In this document: one piece after another, positions 1 to 64,000 of the stretch
How the letters are laid out: each line of letters opens with the position of its first letter
How positions within the stretch are numbered: position 1 is the first letter of the stretch
Assembly: GCA_963969365.1 (NCBI GenBank)
Contig: OZ017747.1
Location: 4,402,001 to 4,466,000 of the forward strand
Direction of reading: 5' to 3'
DNA length: 64,000 bases
From: Asterochloris sp. CNOR1
Taxonomy: Eukaryota; Chlorophyta; Trebouxiophyceae; Trebouxiales; Trebouxiaceae
Position numbers and translations under genes: made by a program
The notes under the pieces: generated by a model
What the model was told of the DNA's origin: nothing
What the model saw: only the letters and a program-made list of their open reading frames with translations
Database searches by the model: none

Positions 1-3000
1 AGGCAATGCGCCCACCCAGGCGCCCATCAATGCCTGGCAGGCTGCCTGCACTCTTTGCAGCCATGAGCGCCTTCACGACGGCCCCCTGGCTGCTCTGTGC
101 CGCCACGTCTGCGCGGCGCTGCTCTGCGCGGCCCCGCACCTCCTGCAGAGTGGCGCTCAGGCGCTGCACCTCGACGGTGGCAGCCTCCAGGGTGGCCTGC
201 GCAACCTGCACCTCCTTCCTGCAGCAGAGCACCACAGCAAGCTGGGCTGGCGCCAGCCTCTTGCCCTGATTTTTCACTATCTGCAGTTCTGTTGCTTGTG
301 CCGCGTGCCTGCAGCAACTGACGCCTCCTCACATGAACTGTTGACCTGCACCTCCTGTGCTCGCAGCCGTGCTTCTCTACCGAGCTGCGCCTTGTTAGGG
401 CTGGCATGCTGAACAGTGCCTTGGCTCCCATGCAACATTCAAGCAGGCTTTGCCGTGTTGCTGTCCTCATCCACCTCTCAGCAGGAGCCTGTGCCCTCCC
501 AGCCTGTAGCTCACTGCTGTCCTGCATTACACCACCAGCTGCTGACTGGGCTGTTGGATTGCCAGTGCTGCTACAGGTAGATGCACCTTGCAGCTGATAC
601 CCATCTCTTGCACTGATGCACCACGCTTGCCAAGAGGGCAGCAGCATCTCTTCACCAAACCCACCTGTGGCGCTTGACGTCTGTCTGCATCTGCTTGACG
701 TCTGCCTGGCGGCTCTGGGCGGTCTCCTCCGCCTCTGTCACACCGCGTTGAGTTGCCTGCGAGGGCCGCGCAGCTATCAAAAATCGGTGAACAGGTCCAC
801 AGGAGGAGCACAAGTATGGCTGAGTAACATGCAAAGTTGCGCTGCGTTTCCAGCGTTTGGCAACACCCCACCGCAGCCACACACACACACACACTCGACT
901 GATGCCATTAATCGCTGTCAGGCCAGTTCTCATGCAATTGATCCTCAATTGGCTGTGTCCTCTGCCCCTCCTCAGCTTGGAGATGTGCTCACCTTAAAGC
1001 GCTCCTGTGCCTGAGCATGAGCCTTGTGCAGGAGGTCCCGCTCTGAGGTGGCGACCCCCATGCGACTGCGCACCTCTCCCATCTGGCGCTCCCAGGGGGC
1101 CAGCTTCATGCGCACAGCCTGCAGGGCCTGGGTGTGCTGCTCCACCTCGCCCTGGGTGGCCTGGACCATGCCCTCCAGCGCCTGCAGGGGACAAAATGCA
1201 GCTGAGTCAAGCATAGGGTGGTCCACCTTGCCCTGCATCATGCGCACCTCAACCCGCCATTGCCTGCAGGAGTCACAATGCAGCTTGGTCAAGGTTATAA
1301 GGTCTTGCAATGCTGCTCCACCCCACATGGCTTGGACCTTGCCCTTGAGCACCTGCAGAGGACAAAATGAGCTGAGGCAAGGTTAGGACCTGGGATCGTC
1401 TACAATGATCCTTGCAACATCTATTCCATTGCCTGCAGGGGAAAGGGGGCAGCATGACTTCCTGAGCCTTGCACTGTTATCTGTGCAGACTAAGCAACTT
1501 GCCTGCACGGCACAACGTCCTGCCAAGCATAACTGGTTTGCAGATACTCAGGACGCCAAGTTGGGATCACAGCAAGCTCTGAAGACTGAGGACAGCAGTC
1601 TATCAGTTCATCGTAGCATTAGGAAAAGTGCTGGCGCCCTTGAAGCACCTCTCAGGCAGGGCACTTCAATGCTGTCTCAGGCATGGGAGGACTCAAGAAA
1701 TCTTTGTAGCCAGGGCTGCTTCTGCAAGGGTAATTCCTGAGCCTCTACCAAAGGAGCCCTGACTTCTTTCTCAAGGTGGAAGAGCACAGAGGCAAGTAGG
1801 CTCACCTGCTCCTCCTGGTGCAGCTGCTCCCCCAGCTTCTCGATGCACTTCGTCAGCGCAGGGATGTCCTTCTCTGCCTGCTTGCCCTCTGCAGCCCGCT
1901 CCTGCAGCCCCGCATATGACACATCGGCCCCAGTGGCCCTGCAGCTTGCTGTGGCGCTGCCCACCATGTTGCTGCAGCTGCCGCACCGCCCAGCTGCTCT
2001 GCGCAGCCACAGCTGGCATGCGTCCACCGGCATCTCTGCTGCTCAGACTCACAGAGCCCACGACCATTTTATGTCTGGTGCTGCAGCATGACCTGCTGCC
2101 TGGACAACGGCCTGCCCATCTGGAAAATGCGGATCGCCCCATGCAAGCATACTATGCAAAACCCACATCTGAGGCCTTGCTGACTGAGCATGTGGTGTCC
2201 ATGCTCCAACATAATACCAAAACAGAACTTTTGGCTCGTCCTGGCACCCAGACCTGCAGTGTGCAGTCCGCAAGTCCCCAGGCTGTGCAGCCTCCCACAC
2301 TCCTCCATGGCAGTCTGTTCACTCACTGCAGGATCACATCAGACAGCAGTTGCTGCGACAGACCTGCAGAACACTGGCACCCCACCTACAGCTTGGCCCT
2401 GCTGCCCGCCAGGTTCTCCTACGTGACAATCTCTGCCGCCCATTCTGCCAACCCTTGCTTGGCTGCTTAAGGACCAGAAGTCCACCTACAGCTCTGTCCT
2501 GCACCAGCTTCTCCAACCACGACACTCTGTGACCAGAAGGACATCAACTGCAGCGTGGCCAAGCGATGCCTGCCCATTCACTGTGCCCTGTCCTGCTACT
2601 GCACCTGCCCAGCAGCCTGCCGCAGCACTCCTCAGGCCACCCCTGCAGCAGCAGACACACCCAGAGGACCCACCTGCAGTTGCTTCTGCATGGGAAGAAA
2701 TTCAAATGACAGTGCTTGCCACCCATGCCCAGCAGCCACAGGCCAAGGGAGTTGATCAGCCCACCTGCAGCTTGGCCTCATCCCTGGCCAGCTTCTCCTG
2801 CAGCTTCTTGACTTTGGCCTTCAGGTGCTTCAGGTCCTCACGGAACTTGATGTCCTGGCGCTCGAAGGCGCGGAACTCCTCACTGGCAGCCTCCAGCTCT
2901 CCCGCAACCCTCGCGCGCTCTGCCCCCATTTGTTTGGCCCTGGACAGGCAGCAAGAGGGCAGTCAGACTCCGGTGTCATTGCCCGCCAGCCGCCACCCAG

Positions 3001-6000
3001 GCGCCCTTCGCACATATTGGCTGGCCCTCACAGGTCCAGCAGAAGGGCACACAAACTGGCTTATTGCGCTGGTCCTCAGCCAATTGCATGCGCTTTGTAG
3101 CCATTGTTTGGGTCTGCAGGTGCAGCTTTGGACCACTCAGGCTTGTGTGCATTGCTGATTGCTCGAGCTGGCAGCACCCAGCTTGCCGGCAACCAGTGTG
3201 CACTGTGCAGGCAGTGACTTGGCCTTGGACGCAACAACATTGCAAGAGTTGCTGTGGATCTGCACCCCAGTGGACTGAGATGGGTAAGAGCCTGACAGTC
3301 GCTTGTCACAGGAGGACCTGGCACAATCCCAATCCAGCACCAGGTGGCCCAGAACGCTTCAGCAGGGCAGCACAGGGCATCACAACAATTCAAAGCAAGG
3401 CTGCCCAAAGAGGCAACCCTGCCCACTGAAGATCAGCAAGGAGGTCAAGGCACCTGGCCTCAGCCTGCTTCAGGGCCTCCCCATAGCTCTGGAACTTCTC
3501 CTGCTCATGCCTCAGCTTGGCCTCCAGCTCAGTGACGCTAGCCTCACTCCTGGCCAGATTCCTCTGCACGCCGCACACCACAGAGGCCAGTCAGCAGCCA
3601 GTGGTGCTGTGCTGACTGCAGATGGTCAAGCTTGACATGTTTGACATCAACCATCAGACTCCAAGATGGGACTTGCTCAGAACTGTTTGCACGATGTTGC
3701 ACAATGTGCCCTGCATGCTCTGTGCCCCACCTGGGCAGTCCAGATGAACTTGAGGAAGATGGTGCTCTGCGCGCGCAGGCACTCCTGCTCCTTCTGCAGG
3801 TAGGCCTCAGCCTGCTGCTTGTCCCCCTCCAGGCCCTCGCGCTCCCGCTCCACCAGCTTCACGCGGGCCAGCTGCTCCTGGCGGGCCTCGTTCAGTTCTT
3901 CCAGCCTGCAGGGAGATGCACTTTGATCATTGGGGTTTTGAGAAGGTGCATCCAGACAGGGCCTGGGCCAGCTGCTCCTGGCAGGACTTGCTCCTTTCTT
4001 CCAGCCTGCTCTGCAGATAGACTCTGCTCTGTGTTGCTGCAAGGGCATGGCATACACCCAACTTCCCCTCCTTCAGCCTGCACAGCAACTCATGCCGTTC
4101 AATGCGTTCCTCAAGGAATGCAGCCCCCACTCACTGCTTGGCCTGCCCCTCGATCTGCTCCACATACTTGTCGGTGCCCACAATGTCCTCCAAGTACTCC
4201 AGCAGCCCTGTGTCGTGGGGGCCCACGGACTTGGCCTTCATCAGGGAGATCTGCTCAACCTCCCCCTGCACAGGGAGGGATGCGAGCCTCGGATAGTTTG
4301 TGGCTCATATGCTTATACACCCCCATTGCATGCCACCAGCTGTGAGACTGTGGAGCTTGGCCTTCACCAGAGGAACCTGCACATGTCCCGTTGCGTCACA
4401 AGTGGTCAGCTCAGACAAGGGGTGCTGGTAGACACATCAATGCAAGGCCAGAGTCGCTGAGCCTTAGCTGTGTCAGGAGTACCTGCCTTACCCGTCCCTG
4501 CCCAAAGAAGTGGTCATTGAGACAAACAGCTGACTAGATTTTCAAGGCAGGCCTGATGCCTCAGGCCCTCATCGAGGTGTTACGCTTATATTTTTCTTGC
4601 TTAGAGGGGTGGTGTGGACCACCAGCCTGCTAAGGCAGAATGCAAATTGAGGCATGCAGAGCTGTGGCAGTCAGCTCTCACCTGCAGGATGAGGAAGCGG
4701 TTGTTGTCCAGGTCGATGCCCTTTCCCTTGAGAAGGCGGGTGACCTCTGTGAAGTTGCTGCGCCGGTCGTCGATGTGGTAATCGGATGAGTTGTTGCGGT
4801 GGGCTGTGCGGGACACCACAAAGGCACTGTCTGGGACGACATCAAATGTCTCTTCCCCCTGCACACAGGCAGGGACTTGTCAGAGCAGCCTAACAGGGAT
4901 GCAAGCAGGGGAAGGGGTGGGAGGGATGCCAAGCCCTGTCTAAGACAGCTTTGATGGTCTACATCCCTCTGCACTCCTTTGCACGCCACCAGGACCATGT
5001 TGGTGCTTTTGAAAAGGGGTTGCAAAGAGACACAGCAGGAAGACAGGCTGGAAACACAAAGGCGCTGGTTGGGACGAGTGTGGAGCTCGCCTTCCCCTGC
5101 AGGCAACTGCAGGCAGCTGTCGGAGATGCTGCAGTGACTGGGCCTGGGACAACACTGAATGTCAGGTCCCCCTGCAAGCAGTGAGTGGCTGTATCTGCTG
5201 CAGCCATCCAGAACATGGCAGTGCTGGGTGCTGGGCCCTGGTGCTGTGGCGCTGCCGTGCTGGCCACGCATGCTGCAGCACTGCTAGCTGTGGCACAGGC
5301 CGCCTGGGACATGCTGGCCTGGCTGGCAGCTACCAGGCTGCTGGGCGCTGGGCACACATACTGTAGCACTGCTGACTGCGGCATCGGCCGGGTTGAGACT
5401 GCTGCTCTGGCTGGCAGCTACCAGGCTGCTGGGCGCTGGGCTCACATAGTGTAGCACTGCTGATTGCGGCATGGGGCCGTGTGGAGTCTGCTGCTCTGGC
5501 TGGCAGCATGCAGACTGTTGGTTGCCGCGTCCAAGCAGATAGCGTGGCCCCTCGGGGGAAAGCTGCAGTGAGCAAGATTACTGGGCAGGACATGCTCATC
5601 GCTGCCAGCCTATCAGGCACGGCAATGCCTGCCTGCCAAGCTAAGCACAAGCAGGTTTCGAGCCGGCACCCAGGCAGAGAGCATACTACCACAGCAACCT
5701 TGTGCTGTGAGCATGACCTGCCTGCTCAGCAAGGCACAAGCATCCCTGTCACTCGCACTCATTGCCAGCCACTACGGGATACAACATTGAAGCGCTGCGT
5801 GCAGCCACATATGGTCGAAGCCGCAGCAGATCATGCTTGGGCATCTCACTGTGTCCAGTATCTCCTGGAAGTGCACTGACACTCTGGCCATCTCCAGGTT
5901 CTGGTGGTGGGTGGAGTTGTGAATCAGCTCTGACACCTTGTTCAGCCGCAGCTGCAAGCGGCAGGGCAACAGCTCAGCGAACCTGCTTGCCTTCAGGCGC

Positions 6001-6389: not shown

Positions 6390-6797
6390 GGCTCCTCAAA
6401 GCTGTCAGAGATCCAAAGAGACCAGGAGCATGTGGTCGTTGACTGCAGTCAAGCTAGGTGGTGACCTCTCCGCAGAGTCTGGAGCCACACAGATCAGCAA
6501 TGAAGGGGCTCTTGAAATCTAATCAAGACATAGTCACATGCAAAAACCGCAGCTGTGGCGACACGAGGCAGCGTCTTAGGTCAGCGATCCGCAGGTCCAT
6601 GCATAGCTGAGCTTTGCCCGGTCAGCAGTCCAAATTAACTTGGACAACAAGCATTATTTGTTTGGGCGATTGGACCTGATCTGGGCACTAGGGCGTCACA
6701 TCACATGCTGTGTGACACCTCGCAACAAGTCACCAGGCCCCATTGAGAATGTTACAAATCATCCACACTGCCTTTGCGGCTACCCTTTGGCTTTGCT
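6390..6797. other. Gap between the SMC4 start and the CR gene end; contains repeat copy A
   Basis: About 400 bp with no convincing coding potential. It should contain the SMC4 promoter (SMC4 starts at 6389 and runs left) and the 3' flank of the CR gene. The only structure seen is the 56-bp block at 6577-6632 that resembles the NAC alpha leader at 11554-11626. Confidence 0.6.
6577..6632 (+). repeat. Imperfect direct repeat, copy A (partner at 11554-11626)
   Basis: Shares with copy B an exact 16-mer taggtcagcgatccgc, then an interrupted match over the next 40 bases (ggtcc, tgca, gagctttgccc against gagcttgcccc) and a 12-mer gtcagcagtcca at the end. Copy B has about 13 extra bases in two places. 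The two copies are in the same orientation and bracket the CR gene. Confidence 0.8.
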
Positions 6798-11628: not shown

Positions 11629-14544
<2,916 letters not shown>

Positions 14545-15074: not shown

Positions 15075-17223
15075 CTACTTCTTGGCTGCCGCTGCAGCCA
15101 GAGAGGAGGAACGTGTCGACAATTGGGCAGCAGCAGATCCTTAAGCAACAGCACAATAGGAAGCGAGGGTCAGCAAGACTTGTGATCAAGCAGCAGGTGG
15201 TGCTGGGTTGGTCAGGTAGCAGCCCATGGCTCTGTGAACACACACAGGACACCAATTTGGCTATGCCCAGCACCCTGCGCCTGTGCACAGTGAGCAAGAT
15301 GCACACAGCGGTCTGTGAGGCTCTCTTTCACAGGAAAAGAGGCTGAATGTGCTGTAAGCCATGCTGCTGCTGCAGATGCAACCCAGCAGGAAGCCCTGGA
15401 CAGTCTGCTGCTTCACGCACCTGCATTCTTCTTGGTGCCCCTAATCTTCTTGGTCCTGTTTTTCCTCTCCTTGATCTGCTTCCTGGATTTCTGAACACGC
15501 TCTGCCAGGCCATTCTGCAGCAGCAGCAGGCAACTTCTCAGAAACAGTACCAGCTTGCGGCTCACGGCTGGCAGCCAGGCATGCACGATGAGAGCCAGCG
15601 TGGCCTCCCAAGTACTGACTGCAGTATACGCCGCTTCATGTACATGACAATCATCTCGTAAAGAGGCAGGCAGATGAGCAAGCAGCATGTCAAGCACAGC
15701 TTCAGCACTTGCAGGCAACCTTTGACATGTGCCTCCTCATCTGCTCACCCTGACAAGGCGGTACTTGGGCTCAAAGTGCTTTGCAGCGTCTAGATTCTCA
15801 TAGATGAGGCCAAACCCTGTCGACTTGCCGCCACCAAACTGCAGCACGCCAGAGCAGTAAAGGTCAGATGGGTACAGCTGCAGAGTTCATGCACACCCCA
15901 CAAGTGGTCTTGCCAAGCATAAAATAGTCTGCCACTTGCTCAGTTTGCTGCAGAAAGCAAGGCAATTTAGCACCCAGCAGGTCTTGCCTGGCTGACAGCA
16001 AACATGAGCATGAAGCCAAGCTTTCATGCCGTTGTGGACTTGCTGCGCCCATCTTGCTGTGATCAGCGGCACAACCCCTCAGCATGATCTGCGGCACGCC
16101 ACAGCACCGAATGCAAGGGTCACACCTTCACAGAGCTGTCCAGCTGCACAAGGAAGGGCAGTGCAGCCCTCAAGGTACTGCAACCAGCCCTGCCATACTT
16201 GGTGCCACTTCCAGCAACAGGCAGGTCAACTACGCATGCCCAGCCTGCTGATCTCCACTTCACATTGCATGCTCATGGCAGGAGGGTGCACCTGAGTGCG
16301 GAAGCCGAAGACGAAGACGTTCTGGGGATCCCGGACATCGTACATCTTTGCCAGCTTCTCCTTCAACTCAGCCTGCACAGAAATGTGCAGCGGCATTAGA
16401 TCAGAGACCTGGTTCTGGAGTACAGCCTGAGTAGGTGGCAGGTGACTTCTCCGAGAAACAGTGCAAAGGCATGCGGCTAGTAAGCAGCTGCTGACCGGCC
16501 AGTGCTTTTGTATGATGGCACAAGATGCAGGGCCAGCCATTGAGCTCAAGATTGAGCTCAATCACTGAAGCAGAAGAATTATGTTCCAACACGCAGCAGG
16601 TGCACCACATTGCTGGCGACTCCAGAAGGCAGACTGCTGTTCAACACGCAGCAGGTGCAGCACGTGTCTCACCTTGGGGACGTTGGGGCGCCCAGGGTGC
16701 AGCACATCAATGATCTGCAGCAGAGGAGGGGCAAGACTGAGGAGCCTGTTGATGTGACTGCAGCATGGCGCAGCTCAGCAGCCATGTCATCAATCTCAAC
16801 CCCGGAAGGAGGCAGCACCCACACCCACACCCACAGTTCAGCTGCCCCAGCATGCTGCCCCAGCCTGGAGTGCATGACGCCAGTGTGCTGCCTAGATGAC
16901 TCTGCCGCCGCGATCTTGCTCAGGCAGGCAGCCTGCCACATACAGCTGGTGCGGCTGTTGTGCGCATGGCTTCTTCTCAAGCGGCTGCTGCCCAGCCTGA
17001 CGTGCGTGATTGCCGGTATCCTGCTCAGACGATGCTGCCGCCCCCTCTTTTGCTCAAGTAGCCAAGCTGCCACGTCAGGCTAAAGTAGCCGGTGTGCGCC
17101 CCCAGCCAAACCCCAGCAACCCCACAGCACTGCGCCAGGTGAACCACTCACAAACTGCCGTCGCTGCAGGAGCTTGTTGGTCATGAACTTCCTGGTGCGG
17201 ATGGTGGCTGCCTTGTCCGCCAT
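15075..17223 (-). CDS. RPS24: 40S ribosomal protein S24 (eS24)
   Basis: Structural protein of the small ribosomal subunit. Six exons join in phase: 17223-17152, 16714-16673, 16372-16292, 15838-15749, 15514-15421 and 15091-15075, giving 131 residues, the usual size. The N-terminus [19 protein letters not shown], then [47 protein letters not shown] and [18 protein letters not shown] are all diagnostic. The final exon is only 17 nt and adds an Ala/Lys tail (AAKK) typical of the family. If the last intron is retained, the frame ends at TGA 15415-15413 with NAGA instead. The start is the ATG giving the conserved N-terminus. It is convergent with NAC alpha and divergent from the Ycf20-like gene. 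Confidence 0.96.
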
Positions 17224-18427: not shown

Positions 18428-18578
18428 TGCCCCTCATCAACCCACACTATAACATAGGACAGGGCGGGGAGGCCAGCCAGGATACATTGAGACAATATAC
18501 AGCTGCTCGTCTTCAATTCAAACTTTAGCTCTGCTCAGCAGCAGACTGCCTGAGGGAATGACTGTCTGTGATGTGACA

Positions 18579-45235: not shown

Positions 45236-45505
45236 GCCGGCGCCTCCTCCCCTGCCCCTTCCAGCTCCTGAAAAGTGTTCATCTCGATCCTGGCTGCTAA
45301 AGCCACCATACTGGTCCTCCCTCTCCCCCTGCCCCTCTCTGCCCCTCTTGGTACCTCTGCCTCTGCCCATTTACGAGAGTGTGGTTTACCTCACATTTCT
45401 TCTGGAGGAATCTGGCATGAGCCCAGCTGCGGCAGCTACAACGTCCACACCATCCGCTCGCTTCACCCCATTCCTTGTGGCTGCTTGGCCAATCTGTGAA
45501 CTGCG
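45236..45505. promoter_or_regulatory. Probable bidirectional promoter, TPR gene and adenylate kinase
   Basis: Only 270 bp separate the two divergent start codons (45235 minus, 45506 plus), so both promoters and 5' leaders must share it. It is C/T-rich on the plus strand at 45220-45375. No TATA box is evident. Confidence 0.55.
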
Positions 45506-48500
45506 ATGGCTGCCAGGCGAGTGGCTCAGGCTGTCAGCCAAGGCGCTGCATCGTTGAATCATGGGCTTGGCACCCATGGCCTGGGGGCTGCTCTTCCCCT
45601 TGCAGCAGCATCCTCCTGCCCCAGGTCACCTGCCTGGGTCTTCCTGGGACCCCCTGGAGTGGGCAAGGGGACCTACAGCTCTAGAGTGGCAGACTGCTTA
45701 GGGGTGCCGCACATAGCAGCGGGGGACCTGGTGCGCATGGAGATCAAGCGGCAGACGCCCTATGGCATCAAGGTGGGCCTGCGGCGGCAGTGTTGAGCGC
45801 AGTCAGCTTCACAGGCGCTGCTGTGGTCACCGCTGTCCTGGTCCCTGACGGTCCTGTTGTGAAGTGCAGGCGCAGAGCATTGTGGAAAAGGGCAATCTGC
45901 TGCCGGACACCATGATTCTGGAGGTGAGATGTGCCTTTGACCCTGCAGCGGTGAAAGTTGCCTCTGGGGGCAGTTAGGCCGGTGCAGCGCCTGCCAAGGC
46001 TCTGTGCCTCAGCGTCCAACAGCACAGCCCTGACTGTGGCCGCTCTGACTGGGCGCCTTGTTGGAGGGCGGAGTCCCTCCCTTTGGCGCCATGCTTTTGC
46101 ACATCATCTGCCTTCAGCAAGCACCCTGCGCATTTGGAGTGCACACCAGCTCTCAAAGGTGCCTGGCAGTCTGCTGCTGATGGTTTGTCAGCATCAGATT
46201 TGGCGCCACGCTGGTGATTCCCCCGTCAAATCAGATCAGCGTTCCTGATGCGCTGACAGCGTCTTTACTGAAGCACCTTACGGCGAGGTCTTACTGAAGC
46301 ACTACAGTGAGGCCTGCACTCTGCTTTCCAAGTTTCCAAGTTAGCTGCAAACTGTGCAGGGGCAGTTAGATGCATTTGCATCCCTCCTTTGTATCAGTGG
46401 CTATGCTGCCTGCATGCTCCTGTTCTGCCTACAGCGCAGATGGCTGGCACTCAAGGGCTCAGCCTCGGCCGTGAGCTGGATTTCTATCTTGACCATCTTC
46501 ATCAAGAGATTTTCTTGCCCCTTCCTGCAGCTCTTCTTGGGACAGGCTGCAGCTGCCAGGGCGTCTCAAATCCTGCAGCAAACACAGTTTCAGCTCCTGC
46601 TCCTGCCTGCAGCTCACACGCATCATCCGCAAGGGAATTCAATCTGGCAGAGGCTGCCATTCAAGCTCCCCACAACAGACCTCTGCTCCTGTCTGTAGCT
46701 GATATGCTTGGTCTGCTCTGTCTTGAGACCGCTCCTGCCCCTGCCTGCAGCTCAATGGCCTCTGGGAGGGACGCTGCAGCACCTCCGACACGGCACTGCT
46801 GACACAGGCTTGCTGTGCTCTGCTTCAGAACTGCCCTCGCCTGCAGCTCATATGCAGGCTGGGAGGGGTGGGCGGGTCCTGTGGAGGCAGGGGACAGGAC
46901 AGAGCTCATCACAGCTGCTGCACAGAAGCTCTTTGTGACTTTCATTTAGACTTTTTGCCTCCGCCTGCAGCTCATACGCATGCGCATCCGGGAGGGGCGC
47001 CAGAGGGGGGAGCTGGGGCATCTTCTTGATGGCTTCCCCCGCACTCAGCTGCAGGCGCAGGCCATGGACGAGTTTGTGGACACCCGTCTGGTCATCAATC
47101 TGCAGCTGCGTGAGGAGGTGAGCCTGTGCTGGCACTCACACTGTTTGCGAGGAACCTGGCGGGTGTTTAGACCTACAGCTGCGCGGGGTGCTGTTATGAG
47201 CAGCAACTGCAGCACAACATGCCAGCAGGCCATGTGCAAAGCCGCTGAGTCTAAGTGCTGCAGTGCGCAGATCCAATTGACCTGCAGCCGCACAGGTAGT
47301 TGAGCCCACACAGGCAGGGGCTGAAGGCACATCTCCATGCGTGTCTGACACCGCAGGTTGATGGCTGTGAGTGCTGGTAACCAGTCATACTGGGCTGCAG
47401 GCAATGGAGATGTGTCTGCCTTGCTGCAGGCCCCAGCGTGTCTGACGCAGCTGCAACTTGGGGCGGGCCATCAATTCCAAGCAATACTGCATCCTGGCTG
47501 GGGGGCAGTCTCGTGGGGAGGTCTCATTGAGTACGTCTCAGACCATGTTGCTGTCGCTGGCTTGCAGGATACCTCAACCCCTATTTCTCTCTAGCACATA
47601 ACAAAATGCTCATGCCCTGCTGCAGGCATCCTTGCAGCGCTGCTACATTTTCACATGTTCTCTCAGGATCTGCTCTGCCCCTGTTGCAGCTGTACATAGT
47701 GCTCCTCAGGATTTGCTTCCACCACTCGCTGGACCACCACCCTGCACTCACCTGCTGGGGGTCTGGACCTGCAGATTCTGACGGCCAAATGTCTGGGACG
47801 CCGCATGTGCCAGCAGTGCGGCAAGAACTTCAACGTTGCCGACATCATGCTGCCTGCCAGCGACACCCAGCCTGAGATTCGGATGCCTCCCTTGAACCCG
47901 CCAGCAGCCTGCATGGAGAAGATGGCCACCCGCAGCGATGACAACCTGGACGTCATCAACAACCGCCTGGAGGTGAGGATTCAAATCGTGCAGGAGAGTG
48001 GGACATTGTGGTGCTAATCTGGACTGAAGCCCACCTCTGGGTTCTGGACAATGCTTGGGAAGTGGGCACTGTGCATGAGGAAGTGTACTGCTGTGTAGAC
48101 CCGTCCTCTGGGGAGGGGGGCCAAGGTAGGTCAATGCGTGTTCTTGACAGGGCGCCGCCAAGCTTGATGGCAATCCCTGTGCTGGTGTGGATGTGCCGAT
48201 CTGGGCCGTGTCTGCGTACCAAAACTTTGGACCTTGTCAAGAGCTGACTTGAAGTTGCTCACCTGAAAGTCAAGCTTTAGGCAGCATCAGCTACCGCCTG
48301 GAGGTTAGCACCAACATGATCAGTGTTGCCAGAGGGAGGTGGGGGGGAGAGCAAGCAATCATCACCTTCATACTGTATGATTTGCTGCCCAGGCGAGCTC
48401 TGACCAAGATGTCCGCTCTTACCAAGATTTAAGGGGCTCTGGGTGGGCCCAACATTTGCTGCACCCCAAAAAGCGACACTGAAGGTTGCTCAGGCCTGGT

Positions 48501-49334: not shown

Positions 49335-52300
49335 TCAATGGCTGCCCTGCTCAAGGCCATGTAGCCTGCGAATGTCATGCACACGCTGCCACACGGCATC
49401 CATGGGCTCCACGACCTCAGTGTCAGGTGGGTGGAGCGACTCATCTCCCAACAGGCCAAGAAAGGACTCTGTCACAGACTCGCTCAGGCCCCGCAGACTG
49501 TAGCCGCCCTCCAGCAAGATGACCAGGCGGCCACCTGCAAAGATGGCCTCAGTTAGGTGCTGGCCCCTGGTGTCAAGAAGCCATTTCCTGAAAGCTGCAT
49601 AATCAGCTGTTGTCAGCGAGCTCCAGAGGCTGAGTCAGGTCTGAAGCAGTCAAAAGCAACGCCACTGCCATGAATTCAATGCTTGACAGCAAGAAGGACA
49701 CCGTCATGGTTGCTTGAGCATTGGCGTGATGGCGCATGGCGGGTGCCCACCTCCAGCAGCACAGTCAGGCTGGTGCACAAGCTACCACGGGGGCATCTGC
49801 CCGGCAGGCAGCCATGCTGGTGCACCACATGGTGAGCTTGATGCAGTCATGCTGCACTTGGTGGGAAACTGGTCCACAGACCAGCTCAATGCAGACTGCT
49901 ATGCCTGACCCTCAGCGCACCCACATGCACCTCAGATTAAAGGGGAGTGATTCACAAGCAAGCTGGCTGACCACGCACCAAGTCCTCAAGTGGCAGCACT
50001 AGAGAACTGAAAAGGGTGTAAAATTGCAACCTGTGCTCTTGGAAGGAGGTGACGTCCAATCCCTCCTTGTCTGGCAGCATCTCTAACGGCAATGGACCAC
50101 TGGCAATGGACCACCACAACACACATGTTTGCAGCAACACAATCATGGTGACAGGCTGGTGCACACAAGCCTAGGTTGTCGACTGTGCTGATTGCAGAGT
50201 GCCTTGAAGCTCCCTCACATACAGGCTGTCAGGCTGTAACGCACCACAGAGCTTGTTACTGAGCTCCTTGATCCTGCGCGCCAACCAGTGGTAGGTGCTA
50301 CTCTGAAAGTTGAGGCTCTCCAGAGGGTCCCGCCAGTGGGCATCAAAACCTGCATTGTCCAGACAGACTTGCAGGGGTGCAAGCAGGAAGCAGAGACCTG
50401 CCTGTGCTACTTCATGCCAGCCACCAGTGCTCGTCGGCCACCAGCACCACTTTCAATCAAGCTCGTGGCGGCAGAGTCCAGCCTGTCGCACATCGCATTC
50501 ACAGCGGCAACGCACTGCATGCATGGACATTGGCATGTTCATGTACTACTGCCAATCTGGGCTCTTAGCAGGAGAGTCCAATCCGCCGCACGTTGCTGAA
50601 ACAGAGGCGCAAAATGCTGATAAGAAGAGATGCAAAATTCAGTGCGTAGAAGTGTGGGGTCAAGGCATTTTGCGCCTGCGAGACTGCTCCCTGGGTTTTG
50701 GCTGAATTGCATGCATTAAGAGCTGCTGCAGAGGTAGATCTACCTGAGCTGACGAGGATGATGTTGGGCTGGAACTTCTGGGCGGCAGGCTGGATGATTT
50801 TATTGAAGGCCAGCTTTGCAGCGGCGTCCCCAGACCCAACTGCAACCATGTGATGCTTTCAGAGCATGCGCAGAGACCCAGTTAGAGATAGTGCCCGGCC
50901 TGACCTGCAGCAGGCATCAGGCAGACAGACAGCTGAGCCATCTGCATGTCTTAAGCAGGGGTGCAAGTCTGGTCCCCTGGCCTGTGGTTAAGGGGCGCAA
51001 CAGTAACATCTGCAGCACAACATGCACATCTACTGCACAGGCAGAACATCGAATGGCTGCAAGGTGAGGAGTGGCCAGAACAGTGGTGCCTCACAAGCCG
51101 CCCACACAATGTCTGCACCAACCAGACCAGCAGAGCCTAATCACCTGGCGCCACACCAGTGCTCAGCAACATCACCAGGAGCTGTTCCACACAGCCAGCA
51201 GCATATGCCAAAATCAATATGGCCGCATCAGCGGCCCTAGCGCCAACATGCCACCAGCACATGACAAGTGTCCCATGTCAACCCAGACCTACTCAGACCG
51301 CTCCCAGGCCCTGACAAGAGCCACTGTGACCAAGTTGGAGCAGTCGTCCACAGTGTGGCTGAAAGCATGCTCAGAAACAAGTGCGAGGGCCCTCACTTGG
51401 CAGTGGGATGTTGATTGTGAACCCCTCCCCCCGTCCAGCCCCGGTCTCCTGCAGCTTGCCGCTGCCCGGCCACACTCCATCCTGGTGCATGTCGATGAAG
51501 AGCACACTGTCATCATCATAAAACAGGTCGCTGGTGCCGTTGCCTGCAGCCAGGACAGGCAGGATTGATACTGTGCTGCTTGAAACCCATCAGTCTGCTT
51601 CCTGTGCTCATGCACGCAGGCCGCCGATGCCACAAGACAGACGTCAGGCTAGCTGCTGTCTGTGGAATGCCACGTGCAGATTGCAGGTTGCAGCTGCAAG
51701 GCATTCAAGGCAGCAGCACCCACAGAGCATCCAAGCATGAAGACAAGATGAGAATGAGTCCAACATCTGGCATCCCCACCCCGCAGACCAGCTGCCGGCT
51801 TCGCAGGTGGGTTGCGGAGCAACCAGTCTGCTCTGTGTAAGCTTGCCAGGGCAACGACAGCCAGACCAACCCTGCTACAGTCTTGAGTGGCCTGTGCTAA
51901 GGTCAGCTGCCGAAAGCCTCACCATGATGCACATCCCAATCCAGGACCATGACCTGCAGGCACCAGCACAGGGTGTCAGCTGCGTTGGGCTGCTGGCGTG
52001 AGGTAAAGGGTATTGCTGCAACCTACCCTGGAGTCGCATTCATCTGCTGCACACATGGTGCAGACACCTGACACCGGGTGTCAGGCGCAGGGGCTGCTGG
52101 GGCGAGATTAAGCATGCACTGCTGCCACCTGCTGTCGAGACCTCTTGTACAGTTGCTGATGTGCCCCAGCGTTTGTAATTCACACTAAGTGCAGGCGCCC
52201 CATGGCAGCAGCACACATCAGTTCCCCTGACACGATGTCCACCTTCAACACCAGCAGCATCATTTTCAGCTCCATGTTGTCCCTGCGGCCTCAGGCAGCA

Positions 52301-54855
52301 AGCCGCATCAAGGACATGCCCAGACAATTCCTGAACAACATAGAACATGCCTGTGCTGCACACACAAGGTGCAGGCGGCCTGCACATGGCCTGCACCTGC
52401 TTGCAGACTGCTCTCAACACTCCATTCTGCCCTTACCTTCTTCAGCCCATGCTTCCGCTGCGCATATCGTGCCGCTATGGCCACATTGTTGAAGAGGCAG
52501 AAACCCAGCGGCTCTGTGGCAGTGGCGTGGTGCCCAGGAGGGCGCCCTATGCTGAAGCCTGAGGGCACAGCAGCATCAGGGCGGCGCTTTCCCTGAGCCA
52601 CCGCCGTCAGATTCTGGCGGTGCTGTGCTGAGGCTGCCACAACAGCATCCACCAGGGTCAGCGCTGAACCTGACGCCTGCAGCAGAATGATGCAGGACAT
52701 GATGCTTCGTGTGGCGACTAGCCCGGCAGGCAGCATTGTTGGAGCATCCATCATGCTGTACGCCAAAGTCAGTGCAGCACTCCTGACACCTGCGGCGCAC
52801 ACCTCTGTCAAAGTCCGTGAGCAAAGCGCAGCACTGCCCAGAGGCACTGCTGCGCAGGATGCACCCTCAACTGTACACGCTGTCAGATGAGCTGATGTCG
52901 ATCCATAGATGGAGCTGCTGGCTATCTGTTGGGCTTGCAGGCTGGCTGTGAGGGCTGCGATCTGCATTGCCTTCAGGCCGCTTGCTGGCTGATCCAGCTC
53001 TGGCCAGCTGGGCACCAGCAGAGCCATGCCCAGTTCGCTCCAAGATCAAGACGCAGCACGTGCTGCCCCTGATTGAGCTGCCAGCTGCAGGGGAACCACA
53101 GGACTGCATTTTTCGTTTATACTGAGTGTAGACGGGTATGGCATCCATCGTGACAACAGGTTGCTTGCTGCAGGGCTGCTGCCTGGCAGTGCCATTAGCT
53201 GGCAACGTTGGACCAAGCTAGCGCAGCAGGCTGGCAAGCCTGGCTGCTTTCTTATGATGACACACCTGCCTGGGGAGGACCCACACTTGCCTGGACATGG
53301 CGACAGCACACAGACGCCGTGCAGACGTTACCCATGGCTGTCACTGGCAGACCACCACAATTAGAAACCCTCCATCATGAACACAGCTCGTTTGCTGCAG
53401 GGCTCCTACCTGGCAGTGCAACTGGCTGGTTACAATGACCAAGGCGGTGCAGAAGGCTAGCGAGCGCACTTGCTTCAGGTCCACACACTTGCCTAGACAG
53501 GGGCACACACTTGCCTGGACATGGTGACAGCACGCAGTAGCTGTGCAGATGACGCCCATGGCTGCCACCAGCGCAGTCGGTGCCTGAGCAATGCCCTTGA
53601 TGACGATGGACCCACCAGCCCCTGCTGCTGCCAAGTAAGGCCCCCATATAGCTCAGGAGGAGAGGTGCTTTTCAGCAATGCAGATTCAGCAACTTTGCCA
53701 GACTGACCCCCAAGCTGAAAGGTGCCCGGAGACAGCCCACCCAGGAGGTCCCCCAGAGTGGCTGCCGCAGACACAAGCTTCATGTGGAGCAGTGCTTGCT
53801 CATCAGTCTTTGAGCCCTAAGACGGCCTTTCAGTTGTGTGCCGAAGGCCACCAGGCACCTGCTCTGCATCTCCAGAAGAGCTCTGATGCATGGAGGTGGG
53901 CATCACCGGGGTTACTCTGCAAAGTGCTGTATAGCACATCAGCAGCTCCTGCGTCCCTGCAGAGCTTCTGCCAAAGAGCTGATGCATCCAAGTGAGCACC
54001 GTTGCACCTGTAAAGCCCCTCTAGAGCACTGCACTGCACAGCAGGCAGCGCCTGCGCACCTGCAGCGCGTCCGCAAAGGAGCTCTGGTGTACGTAAGTGA
54101 AGCCGTCTGGGTCGTCAAAGTCAGCAACCACAGTGGGCTCCCCTGGCTTTGCGTTGGCAGCTGTTTCGCGCACCCTCTGCACGTAGTCTAGCTGGTGCAC
54201 GCAGGTCACCTCCTCTTCTGTGGCTGGCAGGGGTTCTTGTAGCTGCAGCAACTGCAGGACACAGAGGCCACGGATCAGGAGACAGGCTTAAGCTGGTCTA
54301 CCTGGTGCAGGCAGACAATCATTTGCTAGCCAATACGAGCTACAACAGATCAAGAGGCAGAAGATACGATAGCAGTCTTCGGCTGGCAGATGTGCAACAG
54401 CCAGCATCAGGCGCACAGACTACAAGGCAGCCCATGCTAATGTGGATGACGCCATGCATCTGGTCTCTGCAGCATAACAAGGCAGCTGGGACGACGCAGA
54501 GCGGTGCTCTGCCAGTTCAGCGGTGCTCTGCCAGATCCCCGGTGCCCTGCTAGGAGTGACAGCGCCAATTGCTGAATGTTTGCCTGCATGTATGTCCAGC
54601 CAGCTAAGCAGCGGCGGACAGGCATTGCAGCTGCTGGTTCACCTGAGACCCGCGCTGCTCTGGAGTGACACCTGCATCCTTCAGAGCCTTGAGGATAGCA
54701 GGGATCCTCTTGGCTGTCTCAGGGTGGGGCTGCAAGTCATGCTGAGGCGCCCCTGCTACTGTGAACAGAAGCTTGGCATCTGATGCAGCCTGGAGCTGCT
54801 CTGGGGACAAGCGCAAGGGGGACTCCACTGCAAAGGTGCTCAACAGCGCACAGGA
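49335..54855 (-). CDS. Class II-type histone deacetylase, HDA14-like
   Basis: Zn-dependent lysine deacetylase. Recognised exons: about 54855-54646 ([36 protein letters not shown]), about 54251-54058 ([23 protein letters not shown]), about 52681-52440 ([31 protein letters not shown]), a 34-nt exon at about 51955-51922 ([10 protein letters not shown]), about 51543-51424 ([25 protein letters not shown]), about 50840-50742 ([14 protein letters not shown]), about 50347-50200 ([13 protein letters not shown]) and about 49534-49335 ([16 protein letters not shown]). The catalytic His pair (GHHA), the Zn ligands Asp/His (DWDVHH) and Asp (GFDAH), and the Tyr in GGYS are all present, so activity is expected. 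The order and sequence are closest to plant HDA14, which is organellar or cytosolic in Arabidopsis. The start codon lies in an unresolved upstream exon; the apparent start near 54924 is a GTG. Confidence 0.9.
53160..53580. repeat. Tandem duplication of about 227 bp in an HDAC intron
   Basis: The text ttgctgcagggctgctgcct and ggcagtgcc at 53165 recurs as ttgctgcagggctcctacct and ggcagtgca near 53392. The text cacttgcctggacatggcga and cagcacacag near 53285 recurs as cacttgcctggacatggtga and cagcacgcag near 53510. Identity is high enough to be unmistakable. Confidence 0.9.
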
Positions 54856-55447: not shown

Positions 55448-58400
55448 TGGTACCTTCTGCTGCAGTGTGGAAGCCTGATGCCATCTCTGTTTTGGAGGGG
55501 CTGCCACACCCACAGCATGTGCCAGCCGCCTCCAGGTATGGCCGTTTCAGAGATGCACAGAGCAGTCAAGCCTCCTTGATGCTGATTCCCAGATTTGCAC
55601 ACCATACTGTGACTGCAGCCTGTCTCACAGTTCCAATCATACATCATACTGAGTATATGACAACTGTGTGTCTTGCCTGCAGTGTGCCAGCCTCAAAGAG
55701 CACCTGGTCAACAGATGGCAGGCTGCTGGCGCTGGTCACTGAGGGAGCTGTGAGCATCTTGGATGGGAAGAGTTTGCAGCAGGTGCGAGCTCCGCTGGCA
55801 GCCACAGGCCCCCGTGCCCAACAGGGGCAGGGTGCACTGAGGTCCTCAACCTTATGGACATGGCCAAGCCCCAAAGAGTCTGCAGTGCCCCGGTCGATGG
55901 TTCACACAGTCACAAGCTCTTGTGTTCCATGTCAGCCTTCTCAAGAGACGGAGAGACGACCACTGTGTTCAAGTGTCACACGCGCGGCTTGCGCTCGCTG
56001 AAGGTGTTATGTAGCCTGCACAGCTGTCACATGTTCTGACCCCTTGTTGCTGCACATCTGCAGGTGCAGCGCTTTGAGCTGCCAGGCGTGGTGGCAGCGG
56101 CCTTCAGCCCAAACGCTACTTTCCTGCAGACCTTCCAGCAGCCCTCTAAGGATGCAGGGAACTCTGCAAAAAACCTCAAGGTCAGCCACTTTCACCGTGA
56201 AATGGTTCAGGCTTTTGTGCTTGCTTGCTTGTCAAGTGTAGACGAATAGCGTGTCCGGTAGGCCAGCTGCTTTCAGAGTGAGCCCAGCATGCTTCAACAT
56301 TAAATCAAAGGCTGCAGTTTGAGGCAGTGTCTTCACCTGCTCAGGTGGCTTCACTGTGCTTGTTTGCTGCAATTTCTACTGTGCTTCTCGTTTGGTGGCA
56401 CAGGCTGCGCACAGAAGCCCTGCTGCTGGTTGACAAGCGCTCTGTTGCATATCTGAGACCAGCTGCTTGCCCTGCGATGGCTGTCCTCAAGAGAGGCAGG
56501 TAGCCTTGCTGTGACAAACTCAGTATGGTGACACCTCCCGGCCCTGCAGCTGCCCAATCTGAAGACGGGTAAAGTGGCCCAACAGACTGTGCTGACTAGC
56601 AGTGTATGCTGCCTTGTAACAACTGTATGTGTTGCAGCTGCTGAAATTGAAGAATAAAGGCAGCGAGGTGGCCAACCAGCAAAAAGTGTTGATTTTTGTC
56701 TGAGTAACTCCTGGTGGCGCTGCAGCTGCTGAACGAGAGTTGACCATGCAGCCCAAGTCTGCTGACCTGACACAGTGGATGTTCAAAATTGCATGCTGCC
56801 TGCACTGCAGCTGCTGAGTGTGAAGACGGGTGAGGTGGCCATGCAGCTGTACCAGAAGACAATGTCCAAGGAGTCCTGGCCCTGCCTGCGCCTGAGTGCC
56901 GACGAGGCTCTGGCCTGCCACCTGGTCACCAACGCTGTCAATGTCTACAGTACCAGTGACTTTGCTGCAGGTACCTGTATTGTTGTTTTGCATTAGTTGT
57001 AGTTTGCTTTAGTTGTGGGGAAGCAGCCTGGCTTAAAACAGAGCGCGCAGTGGTCCCGCTGACACTTTGACAAGTAATCTGGATCAGTGCACACGGCGGC
57101 ATTGCTGGGGCGGCAGCTCTCTGCCTTGAGCTGCGGCTGGAGCTATGGCTTAGCATGCACAGGGCATTACCTGGCTGCATGCAGCGGAGCACTGGCTGTG
57201 CAGACAGCAGGGCACAGAATGTCCTTCTGCCTTATTGGCCGCCCAGGCCTGTCCCCTGCTGGCAGTCAGCGATGCTGATCTTACTGGCGGCCCTGCAGGT
57301 GTGCAGAAGAAGCTGCCGCTGAAGGGCGTGGGAGGGTTTGGCATCTCCCCAACTATTGCCACTCAGGCCAGGCTGGCAGCCTGGACACCCGAGGCGCGGG
57401 GGTCACCCGGCTTTGTGGGCGTGTGGGACCTGCAGGCGCTGGGGAAAGGGGACGCACCGCCTCCTCTGTCACGGCGCACCTTCTTCAGGGTGAGGCCAAT
57501 AACAGAGAAGCACGCATGGTTCAGGGAACTAGTTGGCCTCAAGGTTCTGGGGTGAGAGTTTGACCGTGAGTTCTTCGCTGGCGCGCGCATCTGCTTCGGA
57601 GTGAGGCCAGGCCACGGCCGCTCTTGCAGGCACACTGCCATCTGGCATGCTGCCCTGACTGCAGGGTCACTGACAAGCTTTGTGTCTGCAGACGGCTGCA
57701 GGCTGCTTTTGAATTGAATGCAGTGCGGGCCATTTTTCAAGCAGCTGGCCCTGGGACAAGGGCTTTCCGTGAGCGACGCTGTTGTGAAGTGAAGGACAAC
57801 AGGATGTATGTGGGAGGCAGCTACATACCCTGCAACTGCAGACCTTTGCAACCAGGAAAGGGTAGCCCAGATGTCATGATCTGGTGGTGTTGCACTACTG
57901 GCTTGCAGGCCCAGCGGGAGCTGTTACGGCTTTGTGCAATTTCTCTGGCCTGCCTCAAGCCCCTTGTGCTGGGCTCTGTGCCTGATGCCGGCAGACAAGG
58001 CTTGGCCATGCAGCATGTGCAGGCCGCCAAGGGTGCTCAGGCTTGCCTCCTGCTGAGCATGTCATTGTCTTATATGCAATTCGGCCTGCAAGCTCTGCAA
58101 AGCTGCGAGCATTGACCTAGGGCCTGGAGCCTGCTTTACATGTTTGGTCTGTGCATGTTGCCTCTGGCCATGGTCAGGCAGGGCTAGGCATAGTGGCCTG
58201 CCTCCTCACTTTGAGTACAACTCCGCCTGCTGAAGTCAAGGTGCAGAGATTTCAGTGGTCAGCCTGCAGTGGAATGTGCACAGGGACCGTCCTGCTGGTG
58301 GACCCCTCTAGTGAGGCAAAGATACACAGTAGTCATACAGGTCAGCTGCCCTGCAGGCAAATAGCGTTAGCCTGCTGTGGAATGCCACTGGGTCCTCCCT

Positions 58401-61400
58401 CCTAGCAACTACGTCCAGCGATGTGGATGCCACCAACCAAAGCTATTACGGGGAGCAGAAGCTGCACTTTCTGGCAGCAGATGGTTCCAATGACTGCCTC
58501 GTCCCAGAGCTGAAGGTGATCCAGCTCGACATCACTATTGCATCTATGATGTTGGCATATGTGATGCTGGCCAGCCTCTTCAACTTCTGCCACCTGCTGC
58601 ATTCAAGCTACAGAAGCACTTGAGCATCAGAGTCAAAACGCCTCTGATGCTGGGAGTAGAATGGTGTGAGCTGCGTACAGCTCTGTGGCATGCAGGTAAT
58701 CTCTGAAAAGCAAGCAGCAGGTGCTTCACCGACTAATGGCAGCTGCAGTGCTGCAGCAAGCACAGGATACATGCTGCAACGATTCTGGAATAAATGCGGC
58801 TGTAAACAAAGCATGCCTGGTTGGCTTCCAAGTATGGGGGCTGCGAAAGCGCAGCCATAGTAACATATGAGAGCTGCCTGTCTGGCTTTGCAATATGAAT
58901 GCTGCAATCTTCGCTTGAGGCTGTGATTAAAGGCCTGTTGCCGCAAGGATAGCAATCTGCTGTCAGCTGTTTCTGACTCTGCATGGCAAGCCTCGCATGG
59001 CGGTGCTACATCTGCTGACGCCGCTACCACCCTGCTGCTGCAGCATTACCCGATCTAAAGATGTCAGATCGGTGGCTGGCTGTCTGGCTTCACAAAATGT
59101 GCAGCTGCTGGCACTGCGCCCAACCCACTGCTGCTGCAGGATGTCAGTGCCAGCTTTCTCTGCCAGGGGCTGCCTGTCTGGCTTCACACTACATGCAGCC
59201 ACGCCAGGGGTGGCCAGTTTAGGTTCGTGCCGTGCACACAGCTGCTGACGTTGGTCCCACCCATCTGCTGCTGCAGGACGGCCCCATCCATGATGCCCAG
59301 TGGTCCCCAGATGGCCAGTTCTTTGTTGTTATTGCTGGGTTCATGCCTGCAAAGACCCTCCTGTTCGACGACAAGTGCAAGCCTGTGTTTGACATGGGCG
59401 CAGGGCCGCACAACATTGTCCGGTGGAACCCCCACGTGAGTCGGCATCAGCAGTGCTACACGCGCAAACAAAGCTGCCTTGGGTTGCTCAAGCTTTGTTG
59501 GGCCTGCACCTTGATGTGCCATGGCAGTGAATGCTGTTTGGAGAGTCCAGCTTTTGGCTGCCCCAGGGCGTGAAGGCTGGGATGTGCCTGCAAAAGCGCA
59601 TGGCAGCCATGTCATCCTGCTTCTGAGAAGCCGTCGCTATGCTACCTGTTGCAATGTTGGCTGCCCCTTTGAGTCAGCAAGCAGAACTACTGCTCTTGTG
59701 ACGAAATCATGCTGAAAATATGGCATTTCTCTTGCTGCAGAGCCGCTTCTTTGCTGTGTGTGGCTTTGGCAACCTGCCAGGGGATGTTGTTTTCTACGAC
59801 AAGAAAGTGGATGGCAAGTGCAAGATCATGGGCAGCACAAGGTGAGGCACTGCCTGCCAGTGAGCAGCAGGAGAAGCAGAGTGGGCTGCTGCAAAGGTGC
59901 TGCACATTGTGTATGGGGCAAACTGCTGTACGTCGTGCATTGGGGCTCTAAATTGCAAGGGACGCCCATGCACATGAGCTTCACACAAGAGCTTCAAAGC
60001 ATGCCTTGGACTGTGATAGTTTGCAGTCTTGGTATTAAGCCAAGTAGCCTTGGGATTTGGACTTTGCCGTGTATGCGACGGCCAGGTGTTGCCTTGGGGC
60101 CGGGGCTGTGCTGTAATGCAGCCTTGATCGGGAGCCAGGGCATGCCCTGCATCCTCAGCTGTGCTACTCTGCAGCTTGACTGCAACACCAGGGCGTGCCT
60201 TAAGACCTGAGCTTTGTAACTTCTTGGTGTCAGTCACATGAGCATGCAATGGCCACTATCCCATCCTGTCAAAGCTGTTCCATCCAGCCGGCTCAGGGGT
60301 GCAAGCCTGACAGCTTTCCACGGCGCTCTTTGTGCTGGGCTGTGCCCTCCCTTTGATGGCAGGAAGGCTGGGAGTGTATCAAGGTCCTGTAATGATATGC
60401 ATGGCCTCATTCATGACTTGAGCTTCAGGCCCGCATGAATACCCTGCGCCTCGTCGTGTGCCGCACATCCCCCGCCTTCTGCCTCCCTGCAGGGAATGCT
60501 GCTTGTCTCCTGGTGTAGGGTAGTTCTAGTGGATGTAAGCCTGCCTGGGGCCTCTTTGATGCAGGAGCCTCCACTTGGCGGATGTTGCCCTCCAGTCTTG
60601 CTGCACACTTGCAACATGACAGGGTCAGAACTTCCCAGACCTTTGTTGCCTGTCTGGCCACTCCTTTAGTTTGTCTCCAGGTGGTGTGCAGGGCCCTCAC
60701 CTGGATGGCTGGGATGCAACCTGCACCGTCTTGGCCCTGATGCCTGCAGAGGGCTGCTGCTGGCCCCGCCAGTGCAGTCTCCCGTCAGCTGCGCTCAAAG
60801 CTGGGGCTGTTTACAGTGTTGGATCTGCACCTGAAAACTGCAAAGCTCGGGCTGTTTCAATCTCCGAAAAGGCCACAATCTTGCTCATGGCACCCCTTGC
60901 TGCTTCGTGCAGAGCCAACAATGGTGTTACCTGCGAGTGGGCTCCCGATGGGCGGCACTTCCTGACTGCCACCCTGGCACCGCGGCTGCGGGTGGACAAT
61001 GGGTTCCAGATCTTCAGGTGGGAGGTGATGCTGCCCTGCTTTGCAAACAAAATCTGCAGCGGGCTGCGCTGCTTGGGATCAGCACAGTCTTCTACTTGAC
61101 GAGTGCCTATGGATGCTGGGTTCCAGGTGGGAGGGGTGGTTGCCTGCTGCTTCAGCTGCAATTACTCCTTGGCTTGCCATCTGGGCCACGACTTAAGAGA
61201 AAATGCTAGCCAGTGGGCGCTGCGTGCCGGCACTGTGCCCCTGCAGTTGTCAGGGCTGACGGAAGGAGTGCTTGATGAGCACCAGCCTGTACTTAAGCAG
61301 CTGTGCACAGCAGTGTCAGGTCCTTAGTTGGTGACTTCATAGCGCCACGACTTGGAGAGGGAGTTGACCTGTGTGGCTTCTTGTGCGGCGTGACCCCGCT

Positions 61401-63813: not shown

Positions 63814-64000
63814 AGTCACTGCATGTTGGACAGCGGCCACTGCAGATGGTACTGACAAGCCTGCGCAACCCTCTACCAGGGCCGCCAGGGCAACTGCTGA
63901 CTTGCATCTGACCAGGACGGCAGCAACTGCATGTGAGCACATCAGGCCTGCTCAGGCCTTTCCCTGCGCTGGCAAACGGCTGGCAGAAGCTCAACTCACT

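Follow-up and report, generated by a model that had tools for sequence, protein, structure and literature searches.

How do the introns of a compact algal genome come to hold worn copies of the exons beside them? The question is raised by a 64,000-nucleotide stretch of the green alga Asterochloris sp. CNOR1 (assembly GCA_963969365.1, contig OZ017747.1, positions 4,402,001 to 4,466,000; G000:C2:4402001-4466000), hereafter the window. A preliminary description had claimed that introns of eight of its genes (SMC4, GST, reticulon, SEN2, TCERG1, adenylate kinase, HDAC and eIF2A) contain ladders of diverged copies of the adjoining exon edge with its splice site, and had ascribed them to a recurring process of tandem duplication across splice junctions. 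We find that short direct copies are common in introns throughout the genome. They probably derive from short tandem duplications that occur at random, are kept where the encoded protein is unharmed, and then decay.

Local direct copies are widespread in predicted introns

Each sequence was compared with itself by banded local alignment (+1/-1, gap 3 plus 1 per base), the band near the diagonal serving as the test and bands at distant offsets, which preserve composition and motifs, as the control. The sample covered 294 kb of the 56.4-Mb assembly (21 contigs, 18 of them 2.0-4.5 Mb long), comprising the window and 23 other 10-kb stretches (18 from 18 contigs, then five more). The window contains 43 local direct pairs (score at least 20, offsets 30-600), as against 0, 0, 0, 1, 1 and 0 in six distant bands, 0-1 in ten order-5 Markov simulations and 0 in ten local order-3 simulations. 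The 18 stretches from 18 contigs hold 92 pairs scoring at least 22, with 0 in the far band and 0 between loci. Over the whole 294 kb there are 207 direct pairs (score at least 20, offsets 30-3000) versus 2 far ones, the far band having about half the near band's cells for the 10-kb stretches. Of the other stretches, 21 of 23 contain pairs at offsets up to 700, the exceptions being L002 and L014. The copies are therefore real, widespread in the genome and not special to this window.

Nearly all pairs are direct, as adjacent tandem copies should be: 207 direct pairs lie within 3 kb, compared with 2 local inverted pairs scoring at least 20 (control 1). Some young pairs are contiguous, with an aligned length equal to the offset plus a few nucleotides (for example 121/119 in L008 and 103/101 in L024). 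Most copies have diverged by 10-35%. The distribution of spacings is broad, with 80-139 nt commonest; the recurrent 88 nt of the preliminary description is not a fixed unit.

Gene structures were predicted with our own small self-training gene finder, run without annotation or RNA, which yielded 68 genes and 649 introns with median lengths of 240 nt for introns and 108.5 nt for exons. Donors follow CAG/GTG and acceptors CTGCAG/G, where the slash marks the splice site. The predicted acceptors are strict in the window and in L002-L024 (T at -5 in 92%, G at -4 in 95%, C at -3 in 98%), a regularity that self-training may sharpen. Within this framework, 133 of the 649 introns contain at least 20 nt of a copy. 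These have a median length of 300 nt versus 224.5 nt, which is no proof of lengthening, as longer introns also give more room for copies. In the window, copies touch 37 of the 145 predicted introns and 10 of the 12 predicted genes, including all eight genes named in the preliminary description. One gene without a copy lies at 42483-45370 on the minus strand and has 6 predicted introns; from its sequence, we take it to be of TPR type. The only other is truncated by the window end.

Introns carry copies of the adjoining exon edges

The claim that introns hold copies of their neighbouring exon edges was examined with the exon sequence alone as query and length-matched introns of other loci as the control. 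At a score of at least 16, the first 60 nt of the exon recur in the upstream intron body in 37 of 604 introns (control 0.0), and the last 60 nt recur in the downstream intron in 30 of 604 (control 0.3). With targets capped at 300 nt and a score of at least 15, the counts are 38 of 463 for exon starts and 24 of 463 for exon ends (control 1.0 each). The core of the preliminary description is thus borne out, with intron self-similarity far above Markov, far-offset and length-matched controls that are all near zero. Exon ends are indeed copied less often than exon starts, and this acceptor-side excess is modest. Exons likewise remain mostly single, and exon-exon pairs make up 13 of 195.

Individual ladders fare unevenly. 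Matches of submitted window proteins were obtained in Pfam for GST (GST_N/GST_C), adenylate kinase (ADK) and Ribosomal_S24e, and in PDB for HDAC6, SMC4 and eIF2A. Homology support is limited to the corresponding genes (GST, adenylate kinase, RPS24, HDAC, SMC4 and eIF2A). Exon-edge copies with homology support are found at four SMC4 exon starts (1135-1387, 2883-3244, 3865-4029 and 4817-5190) and at one eIF2A exon start (56535-56840). Those in adenylate kinase (46598-46996), at the eIF2A acceptor (59102-59278) and in the SEN2-like gene (25196-25390, 27205-27436) depend on gene models or Pfam. By contrast with these, the 88-nt array in SMC4 is probably internal to an intron, the HDAC exon implicated at 53144-53568 has no homolog support, and the short predicted exons underlying the GST pairs are, in our judgement, doubtful.

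The gene finder can turn decayed exon copies into false extra exons, as seen against PDB homologs, and all class counts below are consequently approximate. In eIF2A, the predicted peptide at 56550-56573 is similar to the beginning of exon 56811-56970; the PDB alignment opens a gap of 16 residues at this point, so that the homolog can accommodate just one of the two copies. Predicted internal exons shorter than 40 nt were merged into introns for the simulation, for the thinned counts and for one of two shift-null settings. Class counts exclude offsets over 600 or 700, keeping 195 of 207 pairs, of which the thinned counts keep 119.

A probable origin: random duplication followed by decay

We propose that short tandem duplications, with spacings most often of 80-139 nt, occur more or less randomly along genes. 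Events inside an intron, or across one of its junctions, would leave the protein unchanged provided that the outermost junction is used, and would therefore survive and lengthen the intron. The copies would then decay through substitutions and indels. An exon-edge copy would stay recognisable longest, owing to the slow change of its exon counterpart, such that old events would come to resemble ladders of exon edges and splice sites. As introns lengthen in this way without any change to the protein, exon edges with their splice sites should pile up inside them. The molecular cause, judged by analogy with other organisms, is probably that staggered DNA breaks are filled in before their ends are joined.

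Placement was assessed in two ways. A shift null moved the observed pairs uniformly at random over the sample, ignoring selection and unequal decay. Under this null, junction-spanning pairs with an intronic partner are in excess (77 vs 34.6 with short exons merged, 67 vs 38.6 unmerged; 22 vs 8.5 among merged-setting pairs at least 80% identical), and purely intronic pairs number 50 vs 63.9. A forward simulation instead scattered tandem duplications randomly over the predicted gene structures, discarded any that altered the protein, aged the rest and passed them through the same detector under 13 settings. This untargeted process also produces a junction excess, spacers, short blocks and block ends near junctions. 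Its ratio of intronic to junction-involving pairs runs from 1:0.9 to 1:4.7, and the observed thinned ratio is 27:70, or 1:2.6. Because the exon hardly changes, junction pairs stay visible for longer and their blocks end near the splice site. Random duplication and decay therefore accounts for much of the junction excess.

Several results weigh against this explanation. The simulation has free parameters (age, indel rate and exon rate), and its unit lengths were drawn from the observed spacings. None of the 13 settings fits all measures together. Among the observed junction pairs, the ratio of exon-only to spanning is 22:48 (0.46). Of the ten settings for which both ratios are available, those whose exon-only:spanning ratio is 0.34-0.64 have intronic:junction ratios of just 1:0.9 to 1:1.8; where the latter ratio is 1:2.2 or above, exon-only:spanning is 0.95-2.5. 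Settings that exceed the observed class ratio reach 1.7-2.5, meaning that too few of their pairs still span the junction. Junction-spanning pairs thus stay over-represented relative to the simulations. The deficit of exon-exon pairs against the shift null is not strong (13 vs 15.9, and 7 vs 10.0 after thinning), and so does not demonstrate removal of duplications from exons. Copies are contiguous, or nearly so, in only 42 of the 207 pairs; decay can explain in part the spacers of the rest. Identity of the acceptor motif TGCAG rises to 0.908 when pairs in which both members are predicted acceptors are counted, a figure that is partly circular. Lastly, no pair scoring at least 16 was found in 30 intergenic or untranslated region (UTR) segments totalling 21 kb.

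Are the duplications confined to introns?

This last result suggests a refinement that is compatible with random duplication and decay: duplication might be specific to introns and tied to the transcription or splicing of intron-containing RNA. We regard such a link as unlikely on present evidence. Introns of at least 250 nt contain 80 pairs scoring at least 16 (1.9 by chance), against 0 in intergenic or UTR sequence (0.0 by chance), where even at a score of at least 13 there are 7 pairs to 9.4 expected by chance. Since 55 of 311 such introns hold an internal pair (score at least 16), 10.9 intergenic segments would be expected to do so, and 0 of 30 were seen (Poisson p 1.8e-5). Gene ends behave similarly, as only 1 of 88 edges is copied outwards at a score of at least 15, compared with the 38 and 24 of 463 junctions given above. 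However, the 21-kb intergenic sample probably consists mainly of UTR and promoter sequence, in which duplications could be masked by constraint or by faster decay, and intergenic DNA of Chlamydomonas aligns between species much less than introns do, according to the available text of PMC8226300. A gene finder can also absorb flanks that carry exon copies, which biases the gene-end test. Several causes could thus underlie the intergenic absence: UTR and promoter constraint, more rapid decay, bias in the annotation, or confinement of the process to introns.

The 97 thinned events in 649 introns, at a simulated detection of about 10-51% of events, imply roughly 0.3-1.5 surviving events per intron. 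It is tempting, and for now speculative, to see in this an intron-confined tandem duplication, perhaps linked to transcription or splicing and with a preference for junctions, that acts as the main engine keeping introns long as intergenic DNA stays minimal.

Are splice junctions targeted?

A stronger reading of the preliminary description is that the process is directed at splice junctions, so that exon edges are duplicated along with the splice sites they adjoin. The excess of spanning pairs over the shift null speaks for it, also among pairs at least 80% identical, as does the residual excess over the simulations once the exon-only:spanning ratio must fit too. In addition, of 36 exon-only blocks, 26 have an end no more than 3 nt from a junction. 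Yet untargeted simulated duplication with decay also gives both an excess and block ends near junctions, acceptor and donor sides alike are hit, and some junction assignments depend on predicted exons that lack homolog support. False predicted exons, several of which are visible in the window, probably contribute part of the residual excess and may account for all of it. What stands of the earlier claim is a recurring tandem duplication, often across junctions, with decaying copies that would lengthen introns. We think its targeting to junctions or splice sites unlikely, random placement with decay explaining much of the pattern.

Do the copies have a function?

Copies retained in this way might be working parts, either alternative exons or regulatory ladders of splice sites. 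In acceptor copies whose partner is not a predicted acceptor, TGCAG frequently survives (0.851 of bases identical, the whole motif in 40 of 71). This lies slightly above the same motif elsewhere in the pairs (0.810, 84 of 188 whole) and its reverse complement (0.822, 136 of 287), with random 5-mers at 0.717. CTGCAG is kept at 0.85 against about 0.71 in the flanks; functional acceptor ladders were nevertheless set aside because the motif elsewhere in pairs is kept nearly as well. Intron bodies across the 294 kb contain 871 sense and 1084 antisense TGCAG, the palindrome CTGCAG contributing 387 to each. This under-representation of the sense motif indicates that decoy acceptors seem to be removed, that is, selected against.

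Alternative or mutually exclusive exons should show coding constraint on the copies, and codon-position mismatches do not reveal it. Exon and intronic copy mismatch at 0.217, 0.223 and 0.256 for codon positions 1 to 3, and intronic copies mismatch one another at 0.254. The slight third-position excess fits a constraint mainly on the exon, with the copies under no clear coding constraint. The eIF2A homolog, moreover, could not accommodate the copy as an additional exon. Overall, the copies look like leftovers rather than working parts, and a function for them is improbable; a small retention advantage of the acceptor motif may exist nonetheless.

Intron gain, mobile introns and artefact

Tandem duplication of an exonic AGGT-type site, the Rogers model, can create an intron outright. 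The similarity it requires occurs on one side or the other in 5 and 4 of 604 introns (score at least 16; control 0.0). These cases are far rarer than the junction-spanning ones, which also carry sequence from the 3' end of the intron. We therefore rejected intron gain as the main process and consider it most improbable as the source of these copies. Mobile introner-like elements should leave similar introns in unrelated genes, and have very little to recommend them here, given 0 matches in 18 cross-locus pairings (one offset band, not all-against-all) and far bands near zero in the window. Chance, composition or assembly error can scarcely be entertained: CTGCAG is abundant in the genome (241 occurrences in the window versus about 20 expected), yet the far-offset, Markov and length-matched controls are near zero, and the 10-35% divergence of most copies would be beyond read errors or collapsed repeats.

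Features of the window and other loci

The copies in the window are collected in Table 1. At its start, the gene finder merged SMC4 with an upstream gene of unknown kind (16-10658, minus strand), and the boundary between the two probably lies near 6270-6850. A match to the box C/D small nucleolar RNA U36a (Rfam, 68.8 bits) occurs at 35610-35695 on the plus strand; the predicted TCERG1-like gene, on the same strand, spans this position.

Two loci elsewhere in the sample involve whole exons or exon interiors. At L012:6198-6987, a 401-nt tandem duplication with 87% identity takes in a whole predicted exon and parts of both its introns, and is a candidate recent exon duplication. A 69-nt repeat array lies within a predicted exon at L024:2881-3144.

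Table 1. Exon-edge and intronic copies in the window (positions within the 64,000 nt; TRF, Tandem Repeats Finder)
Feature	Position	Strand	Evidence
SMC4 exon start (exon 993-1181) and 3' intron end; reference of a three-step acceptor ladder	1135..1217	-	PDB SMC4 alignment
Decayed copy 1 of SMC4 junction 1135-1217, offset 81, CTGCAG retained	1219..1293	-	53/74 identical
Decayed copy 2 of SMC4 junction 1135-1217, offset 176, CTGCAG retained	1311..1387	-	65/77 identical
SMC4 exon start (exon 2765-2939), reference	2883..2961	-	within PDB SMC4 match
Copy of SMC4 exon 2765-2939 start, offset 285	3168..3244	-	54/77 identical
SMC4 exon start (exon 3731-3905), reference	3865..3928	-	within PDB SMC4 match
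Copy of SMC4 exon 3731-3905 start, offset 100	3965..4029	-	51/64 identical
SMC4 exon start (exon 4682-4858), reference	4817..4885	-	a PDB SMC4 match stretch starts here
Two copies of SMC4 exon 4682-4858 start (5055-5125, 5144-5190), offsets 238, 313	5055..5190	-	48/69, 34/47 identical
88-nt tandem array, probably within one long SMC4 intron, no exon edge	5259..5521	-	TRF period 88, 83%; predicted exon without homolog support
Presumed NAC-alpha-like gene (named from its protein), intron pairs, offsets 93-303; absent from the preliminary description's list	12492..13258	+	self-alignment
RPS24 gene, intron-internal pair, offset 133	16853..17099	-	Pfam Ribosomal_S24e
GST gene, pairs at offsets 128, 165, probably intron-internal	19170..20001	-	Pfam GST_N/GST_C; short predicted exons judged doubtful
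Reticulon-like gene (name from the preliminary description), pairs at offsets 116, 243	22952..23235	+	self-alignment
SEN2-like gene (name from the preliminary description), end of exon 25299-25484 and copy, offset 94	25196..25390	-	73/97 identical
SEN2-like gene, start of exon 26990-27270 with acceptor and young copy, offset 125	27205..27436	-	97/107 identical; TRF period 125
TCERG1-like gene (name from the preliminary description), acceptor-side pairs, offsets 69, 83, 165	38345..39095	+	self-alignment
TCERG1-like gene, donor-side pair, offset 248	40548..40926	+	identity 0.83 over 130 columns
Adenylate kinase, start of exon 46971-47117 and copies 46598-46635, 46832-46859	46593..46996	+	32/38, 24/28 identical; Pfam ADK
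HDAC gene, intron-internal pair, offset 104	51955..52139	-	PDB HDAC match
HDAC gene, pairs at offsets 227, 98; the first (53144-53568) probably intron-internal	53144..54083	-	predicted exon 53410-53624 without homolog support
eIF2A, start of exon 56811-56970 and decayed copy 56535-56579, offset 261	56535..56840	+	36/45 identical; 16-residue gap in PDB eIF2A alignment
eIF2A, acceptor of exon 59277-59435 and two upstream copies, offsets 137, 230	59008..59278	+	nearer copy 32/40 identical

Comparison with known systems

In humans, short insertions (<100 bp) are most commonly small tandem duplications, formed when Pol alpha-primase fill-in at breaks with 3' overhangs precedes end joining, as the accessible part of one study has it (PMC8355091). 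Those duplications, made with CST/Pol alpha-primase, resemble the present ones in being direct, contiguous, short and genome-enlarging. They differ in being insertions of <100 bp with no link to introns described in that part, whereas ours are intronic and their pathway is proposed by analogy.

Two reports, as represented in their excerpts, concern new introns. In potato, an intron of the RNA-dependent RNA polymerase (RdRp) gene was gained by a tandem duplication across an intron-exon boundary (PMC4974935), and as in Asterochloris the duplicated segment carries the acceptor and the 3' end of the intron across the boundary. That event made a new intron; here, existing introns grow, exons mostly stay single, and there are many cases in one genome. 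Some novel introns of Drosophila also seem to have been born from tandem duplication or sliding (PMC2891723). They share with our cases a tandem duplication near splice sites with one copy turned intronic, but occupy new intron positions, unlike those described here.

The closest genomic parallel comes from relatives of Chlamydomonas, which likewise have compact genomes and many introns per gene, with median introns of 198-343 nt. Their introns are conspicuously long and their intergenic distances mostly short; no driver of intron length is settled on, nor is duplication proposed as one, in the portion of that study at hand (PMC8226300). On nuclear introns, passages of a further paper (PMC12633428) supply just their numbers and lengths. 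A scan of viral and bacterial or archaeal contigs with a piece of SMC4 yielded no genome for comparison. Among the literature matches listed, none described genome-wide exon-edge duplications in algal introns, subscription journals lying mostly outside the search.

Implications

The finding is a well-populated example of a known process, and the possible restriction to introns and the residual junction excess are its more interesting parts. It provides a concrete and measurable route by which introns may lengthen without any change to the protein. It also carries a warning that ab initio gene finders may call decayed copies as false exons. If duplication is indeed confined to introns, it would account for the strikingly long introns seen in compact genomes of green algae. 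Should the restriction to introns hold genome-wide, the question of why these genomes keep long introns would become testable through duplication breakpoints compared between strains.

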